Both the position numbers and the translations under genes were made by a program. From Nitrososphaerota archaeon (GTDB lineage Archaea > Thermoproteota > Nitrososphaeria_A > Caldarchaeales > JAVZCJ01): a DNA stretch of 64,000 bases. Below the pieces are notes generated by a model. It saw only the letters and a list, made by a program, of their open reading frames with translations. It was not told where the DNA came from and searched no databases. This document shows positions 2,170 to 32,339 of the stretch, piece by piece (the first letter of the stretch is position 1; every line of letters starts with the position of its first letter). The stretch is from positions 1 to 64,000 of the forward strand of contig JAVZCJ010000006.1 in NCBI GenBank assembly GCA_038874475.1. Reading direction: 5' to 3'.

Positions 2170-2243
2170 ACCATAATTGACCATTATATTATATTGATTT
2201 AAATAAAAAGGGATTTAAAAGTTATATTAAACTTTAATAGTAA

Positions 2244-2267: not shown

Positions 2268-2356
2268 GGGTCGGTAGATCAGTCTGGAATATTTTATACA
2301 GAAGATCGCTCCGCTTGCAACGGAGAGGTTCCCGGGTTCAAATCCCGGCCGATCCA
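2268..2356 (+). tRNA. tRNA-Ala (anticodon TGC) with a ~14-nt insertion in the D-loop
   Basis: The acceptor stem pairs GGGTCGG (2268-2274) with CCGATCC (2349-2355) and includes G3-U70, the alanine identity pair; A2356 is the discriminator. The anticodon arm is CTCCG-CTTGCAA-CGGAG with TGC at 2316-2318, and the T-arm is CCGGG-TTCAAAT-CCCGG. The D-stem GATC/GATC (2277-2280, 2304-2307) encloses 23 nt instead of about 9. Removing 14 nt (2290-2303, or the same length shifted up to 3 nt left) restores a standard AGTCTGGAA D-loop. TCTG (2283-2286) can pair with CAGA (2299-2302), as in a relaxed bulge-helix-bulge splice motif. No 3' CCA is encoded. Confidence 0.93.
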
Positions 2357-5505: not shown

Positions 5506-5871
5506 TTACAAAAGATATAATTCAATCTTTTCAAGTTCTCCTGTTTTTGGATTTACTTTAAAGCCAAGCTTTTCTAAAGCTGTAACACCTATTAGAGCAT
5601 CTACATTAGGTGGTAACTTTAAATTCTCCCAAACTTCAACATCTCCATGTGTGACAATGCCCATCAAGTTTATTTGACATCCACCATATTTTACTTCTAC
5701 TTTTTCACCATTAGGAAGAACTCTAACCCTTTTATATTTCTGTTCAACACCTAACCTTTTAGCTAATTCATCATTAACCATAATATCTCCATAAAAGCCT
5801 GTATCTATAAGACCTTTAACTTCAACTTCTCTTTCACATCGAATTTTAACATCAATAATAGTGCTACCCAT
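5506..5871 (-). CDS. Clan AA aspartyl-protease-like protein
   Basis: This 121-aa single-domain protein has LIDTGFYGDIMV at residues 21-32: Asp23-Thr24-Gly25 is the active-site signature of retropepsin-type proteases. The conserved DALIGVTALEKLGFKVNPKTG region follows near the C-terminus (~91-110). Small proteins of this kind are widespread in archaea and would act as dimers; their substrates are unknown. It is a single gene with no partner, sitting between the rml genes and toxin-antitoxin remnants. Confidence 0.8.
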   Translation of the reverse strand: MGSTIIDVKIRCEREVEVKGLIDTGFYGDIMVNDELAKRLGVEQKYKRVRVLPNGEKVEVKYGGCQINLMGIVTHGDVEVWENLKLPPNVDALIGVTALEKLGFKVNPKTGELEKIELYLL

Positions 5872-32254: not shown

Positions 32255-32339
32255 GCCCCGATAGCTCAGCTGGTCGGAGCATCGGCCTCGTATAAAACAA
32301 GATAGCCGAGGGTCCCGGGTTCAAATCCCGGTCGGGGCT
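32255..32339 (+). tRNA. tRNA-Thr (anticodon CGT) with an 11-nt intron
   Basis: Acceptor GCCCCGA (32255-32261) pairs with TCGGGGC (32332-32338), with T32339 as discriminator. G1-C72, C2-G71 and U73 agree with archaeal threonine tRNAs. The D-arm is GCTC-AGCTGGTCG-GAGC; the T-arm is CCGGG-TTCAAAT-CCCGG. The anticodon stem TCGGC/GCCGA encloses 18 nt. Reading C32-T33-CGT-A37 and removing TAAAACAAGAT (32293-32303) leaves a 7-nt loop with the intron at the usual 37/38 site. CTCG (32-35) pairs with CAAG in the intron with one C-A mismatch, as in a relaxed bulge-helix-bulge. No CCA is encoded. Confidence 0.9.

Follow-up and report, generated by a model that had tools for sequence, protein, structure and literature searches.

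Non-canonical introns of archaeal tRNAs are known at positions 20/21, 22/23, 24/25 and 25/26, among others, in the partial list of PMC4090602, and introns in the D-loop have already been described (PMC6379350). The archaeal splicing endonuclease cuts between the second and third residues of the bulges (PMC4307357), and introns with a relaxed bulge-helix-bulge (BHB) motif are efficiently removed by the (αβ)2 and ε2 enzymes only, a lysine in the specific loop being tied to broad specificity (PMC6379350). Experiments have confirmed D-arm introns in the tRNA-Glu of Sulfolobus tokodaii and the tRNA-Thr(UGU-1) of Aeropyrum pernix (PMC4307357), and Ca. Caldiarchaeum subterraneum tRNA-Thr(GGU) contains introns at 24/25 and 45/46, with a tRNA-Thr intron present or absent between close strains and a mobile element implicated (PMC3293823). 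The occurrence of D-arm introns in these three organisms is at odds with a preliminary description of the DNA studied here, which regarded such introns as known mainly from Thermoproteales and their relatives. In Thermoproteales, similar introns in different isodecoders suggest intron transposition, according to work cited in PMC4090602.

Here, we analyzed a 64,000-nt stretch of DNA from a Nitrososphaerota archaeon (the window), in which a tRNA-Ala(TGC) gene carries a 14-nt D-loop insert that very probably represents a real intron of this already known kind. Like the S. tokodaii and A. pernix introns, it lies in the D-arm, at a putative BHB-like structure, but excision by the crenarchaeal endonuclease is proven for those introns, whereas that of the window intron is predicted from sequence. 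It shares with the tRNA-Thr(GGU) introns of C. subterraneum the same order, a D-arm location and a setting in which intron presence varies among close relatives, strains there and sister species here, and differs from them in the tRNA and the position; a mobile element was implicated for the Thr intron, and none was tied to the window intron.

Direct reading of the sequence identified a complete 89-nt pre-tRNA-Ala(TGC) gene with a D-loop 14 nt too long. Its acceptor stem GGGTCGG/CCGATCC, including G3-U70, the alanine identity pair, is followed by U8-A9, and a GATC/GATC D-stem surrounds 23 nt (2281-2303). The anticodon arm CTCCG-CTTGCAA-CGGAG, the T-arm CCGGG-TTCAAAT-CCCGG and the discriminator A73 at 2356 complete the gene, the features of which are as follows.

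2268..2356, + strand: single-copy pre-tRNA-Ala(TGC) gene, 89 nt (direct reading, ARAGORN, covariance model, homology to the genome's own Ala(GGC) and Ala(CGC))
2268..2289, + strand: 5′ exon in the preferred register, comprising the acceptor 5′ strand, U8-A9, the D-stem 5′ strand and the D-loop AGTCTGGAA (paralogue comparison)
2290..2303, + strand: predicted 14-nt D-loop intron TATTTTATACAGAA at position 21/22 in the preferred register (register scoring; absent from the paralogues and from the other tRNA-Ala surveyed in the order)
2304..2356, + strand: 3′ exon, running from the D-stem 3′ strand through the anticodon arm, the variable region and the T arm to the acceptor 3′ strand and A73 (reading, homology, fold)
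2277..2280, + strand: D-stem 5′ strand GATC (fold)
2304..2307, + strand: D-stem 3′ strand GATC (fold)
2283..2286, + strand: exon strand TCTG of the exon-intron helix (folds; at chance level on its own)
2299..2302, + strand: intron strand CAGA of the exon-intron helix (folds)
2316..2318, + strand: anticodon TGC (reading)
2217..2232, + strand: A+T-rich stretch AAAAGTTATATTAAAC, possibly a promoter (also upstream of the genome's own Ala(GGC) and of the sister-species orthologue of Ala(GGC))

Two further observations concern the surroundings of the gene. Beside it, at approximately 2500-2790 on the + strand, an apparently broken frame gives the impression, from its sequence, of a HerA-type ATPase fragment, which an integrated element may have left behind, and a small ORF of 121 aa (5506-5871, − strand) has in its translation an LIDTGF motif resembling that of retropepsin-like aspartyl proteases.

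ARAGORN placed a tRNA at 2267-2357 with its identity unassigned, and Rfam RF00005 scored the tRNA-Ala(TGC) region below its gathering score. Our alanine covariance model, based on relatives together with the spliced sequence of the window gene, gave this gene 84.8 bits with the insert included. The minimum free energy fold of the precursor (−33.3 kcal/mol, z −2.65) was exactly the expected cloverleaf, with an additional TCTG/CAGA hairpin in the D-loop. As a tRNA whose D-loop carries an insert, 2268-2356 lies far beyond chance, and a split or permuted tRNA was rejected, every part being collinear inside the 89 nt. The stability of this unspliced fold, which keeps the D-stem and stacks the hairpin upon it, would suit a mature tRNA that retains the 14 nt, with a 23-nt D-loop and the hairpin extending the D-arm. 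In that fold, however, G18 is paired in the hairpin and G19 adjoins it; as G18 and G19 usually contact the T-loop in tRNA structure, this contact would be lost in the unspliced form, and we give retention very little credence.

Comparison with related genes pointed to removal of the insert. The host genome, a 1.92-Mb draft in 30 contigs and 97.5% complete, contains two other tRNA-Ala genes, GGC (C4:130248-130322) and CGC (C4:112278-112351), in both of which GATC and GATC enclose the 9-nt D-loop AGTCTGGAA, and from which the window 5′ exon differs solely at acceptor positions 4-5. Once 14 nt are taken out, the window gene has the same D-loop as both intronless paralogues. The preliminary count of 23 nt within the D-stem, reduced to 9 nt by that deletion, is exact; the predicted spliced product reads AGTCTGGAAGATC. 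The D-loop AGTCTGGAA is also found in Ca. Caldarchaeum tRNA-Ala; a genome of this group, G004, has a tRNA-Thr at 503442-503515, coordinates that PMC3293823 lists for tRNA-Thr(CGU) in the composite genome of C. subterraneum. A survey of the order to which Ca. Caldarchaeum belongs gave 41 distinct tRNA-Ala sequences. The D-loop measures 7-10 nt in 40 of them, and the window gene is the only one interrupted there; the introns of other tRNA-Ala genes are located either at the anticodon loop or close to 25/26. The upper limit of 10 nt for the D-loops of all other tRNA-Ala in this survey also argues against retention. A gap-tolerant pattern run on GTDB species genomes, a set that may leave out the host genome and those near it, found 2-3 nt between CTGG and GATC in all 18 matches, as against 16 in the window gene. 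Homology thus provides strong sequence-level evidence for an intron, unlike the BHB motif considered below.

The preliminary description had raised the possibility of another intact tRNA-Ala(TGC), and none was found in the draft host genome by BLAST, the alanine covariance model or separate patterns for the 5′ and 3′ halves. GCA is not read by Ala(CGC) or Ala(GGC) under normal archaeal decoding rules, and the window gene should therefore be needed. A draft that is 97.5% complete could still hide a functional Ala(TGC) in unassembled sequence and make the window copy a pseudogene, yet all its stems, T-loop, anticodon loop, G3-U70 pair and discriminator are intact, the sole deviation is a cleanly removable insert, and several other tRNAs of the same genome carry such inserts, making decay of this copy very improbable. 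The sister-species genome G001 (98% complete) yielded no Ala(TGC) by BLAST, the covariance model or 3′-half and 5′-half patterns, so that the window gene has no direct orthologue for comparison; the gene of G001 is either lost, unassembled or more heavily interrupted.

The sequence GAA flanks the insert at both ends, and because of this repeat, four cut pairs (18/19 to 21/22) lead to one mature product: removal of 2287-2300, 2288-2301 or 2289-2302 gives the same mature tRNA as removal of 2290-2303. Apart from this 3-nt repeat the insert is unique sequence, which speaks against an assembly or sequencing error; the 14 nt do rest on one assembly, but an insertion at the site where other tRNAs of the genus hold distinct inserts would be an unusual error, and we consider this origin exceedingly unlikely. 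All four registers of the presumed intron were scored by the rule that cuts fall between bulge residues 2 and 3. The top-scoring register was CTGGAA^TATTTTATACAGAA^GATCG, with cuts at 2289^2290 and 2303^2304 on the border of D-loop and D-stem; its CTG/CAG helix is accompanied by a single G-A mismatch, its bulges read AAT and AAG, and helices of 2 bp flank both sides. Cutting there would excise 14 nt and no more, leaving the D-stem whole.

The preliminary description had seen a relaxed BHB in TCTG/CAGA and had objected that canonical cuts would remove 16 nt and spoil the D-stem. The pairing is indeed present in the fold, but 63% of shuffled inserts formed a helix as long (4 bp) or longer, placing TCTG/CAGA on its own at chance level, and the register shifted by one is preferred. 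The unshifted register (bulges GAA and AGA) was rejected, as its standard cuts take 16 nt and damage the D-stem; the objection is limited to that register, because the shifted one excises 14 nt and spares the D-stem. The best register-compatible BHB score was matched by 4-10% of shuffles, and a relaxed BHB is compatible with position 21/22. The BHB fold of the preferred register is far less stable than the fold that keeps the D-stem (−19.4 versus −33.3 kcal/mol). Under the strict definition of a BHB (4-bp helix, two 3-nt bulges, each cut after the second bulge residue, correct product), the best product-compatible register has three of four helix pairs, and we therefore keep the window intron out of the strict BHB subtype. 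The motif is thus compatible with splicing without proving it, and is weak evidence by itself.

Two PF01974 proteins are encoded in the host genome, near 42002 of contig C10 and near 240051 of contig C1, and correspond to the alpha and beta subunits of a splicing endonuclease of the (αβ)2 type. The alpha subunit aligns over almost its whole length with the A. pernix catalytic subunit (3p1z_B, E 1.9e-48), retains the GIDHAPF motif, the His of which is Ala in 3ajv_B, and has its Lys38 aligned with A. pernix Lys44 in the Crenarchaea-specific loop. The second protein aligns with endonuclease subunits and is missing the GIDHAPF motif, fitting a structural beta subunit. Since both subunits and Lys38 are present and the loop lysine is tied to broad specificity (PMC6379350), a broad-specificity (αβ)2 enzyme is to be expected in the host; the search for such an enzyme, proposed in the preliminary description, thus had a positive outcome at the level of genes. 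An encoded splicing endonuclease also counts against retention of the 14 nt.

While the gene, the insert and the endonuclease genes are observed, we infer transcription, cutting, the exact cut sites and ligation as follows. The single-copy tRNA-Ala(UGC) would be made as a precursor holding the 14-nt D-loop intron, the 3′ part of which would pair with exon nucleotides of the D-loop to form a relaxed BHB. The (αβ)2 endonuclease would cut both bulges, most likely at CTGGAA^TATTTTATACAGAA^GATCG (21/22, with three equivalent registers), and tRNA ligase would join the exons into a tRNA with the 9-nt D-loop AGTCTGGAA. A small insert in the D-loop or D-arm and an (αβ)2 endonuclease with the specific-loop lysine are shared with the known D-arm introns (PMC4090602, PMC6379350), and so would be a relaxed BHB. 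Unlike those, the window intron has a weak BHB, and its preferred register, 21/22, lies outside the partial list of positions in PMC4090602, which includes the equivalent 20/21.

The sister species belongs to the same genus and is syntenic with the host around the tRNA genes, the shared flanks of the compared loci being about 90-93% identical between the host (G000) and G001. For tRNA-Arg(TCT), a 30-nt D-loop insert is present in G000 (C8:61534-61638) and absent from G001 (C30:8396-8470); one arm of its internal hairpin (GGACAAAT) repeats the exon sequence GGACAA, hinting that this intron may have been born by local duplication. Likewise, tRNA-Gly(GCC) has an 18-nt D-loop insert and a 13-nt anticodon-stem insert in G000 (C8:66723-66828) and neither in G001 (C14:35497-35571), and its D-loop intron region holds GCCTAGAATGG, which is identical to 11 nt of the tRNA-Arg D-arm. 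In the opposite direction, Arg(TCG) and Arg(GCG) of G001 (C9:6924-7013 and C5:70502-70591) share a 15-nt D-loop insert of identical sequence, from which their syntenic G000 orthologues are free, a pattern that suggests intron copying or gene conversion, and Gly(TCC) has a 20-nt D-loop insert in G001 only. For Arg(TCG) and Gly(GCC), the central helix is a canonical 4 bp, and cuts between bulge residues 2 and 3 yield exactly the intronless orthologue.

The D-loops of Asp(GTC) and Thr(GGT) contain inserts in G000 as well as in G001, and further D-loop inserts of G001, with approximate cut positions, lie in the tRNA adjoining Asp and in a Met-type tRNA. This Met-type tRNA (AGCGGGG...; C9 near 50892) has about 52 nt extra in the D-loop region, perhaps two introns, and its G000 counterpart is uninterrupted. 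Because whole inserts are gained or lost between the species while the exons remain unchanged or nearly so, the D-loop inserts behave as introns, and this all-or-none pattern is a further point against retention of the 14 nt in tRNA-Ala(TGC). The intron proposed for that gene in the preliminary description is accordingly supported by the paralogues, the order-wide tRNA-Ala, the absence of another TGC copy from the searches above and the sister-species inserts. Its length, 14 nt, had been called very short and is not exceptional, introns of 10 nt (Arg(CCT)), 11 nt (Thr(CGT)) and 13 nt (Gly(GCC)) being present in the same genome. The Thr(CGT) gene is also in the window (32255-32339, + strand), with its canonical 37/38 intron at 32293-32303 and the same intron sequence in G001.

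Taking the two genomes together, we incline to the view that short introns (14-30 nt) are quickly gained and lost in the D-loop, which would be a hot spot for them in this low-G+C genus of the Caldarchaeum order, with sisters of about 90-93% identical DNA near tRNA genes sharing exons and bearing their D-loop introns in largely different tRNAs. Standard annotation fails on the window gene, as ARAGORN gives it no identity and Rfam leaves it below cut-off, and non-canonical splicing would be required for a single-copy tRNA on which, under the usual decoding rules, GCA codons rely. The single intron appears a modest case, and D-loop intron turnover within the genus the more interesting point: at syntenic loci of the pair, very short D-loop introns are cleanly present in one species and absent from the other, which is relevant to the still open question (PMC4090602, PMC3293823) of how archaea gain introns in their tRNAs. 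If the proposed turnover is true, this species pair could reveal the origin of tRNA introns, for example by copying between isodecoders or by duplication of D-arm sequence.
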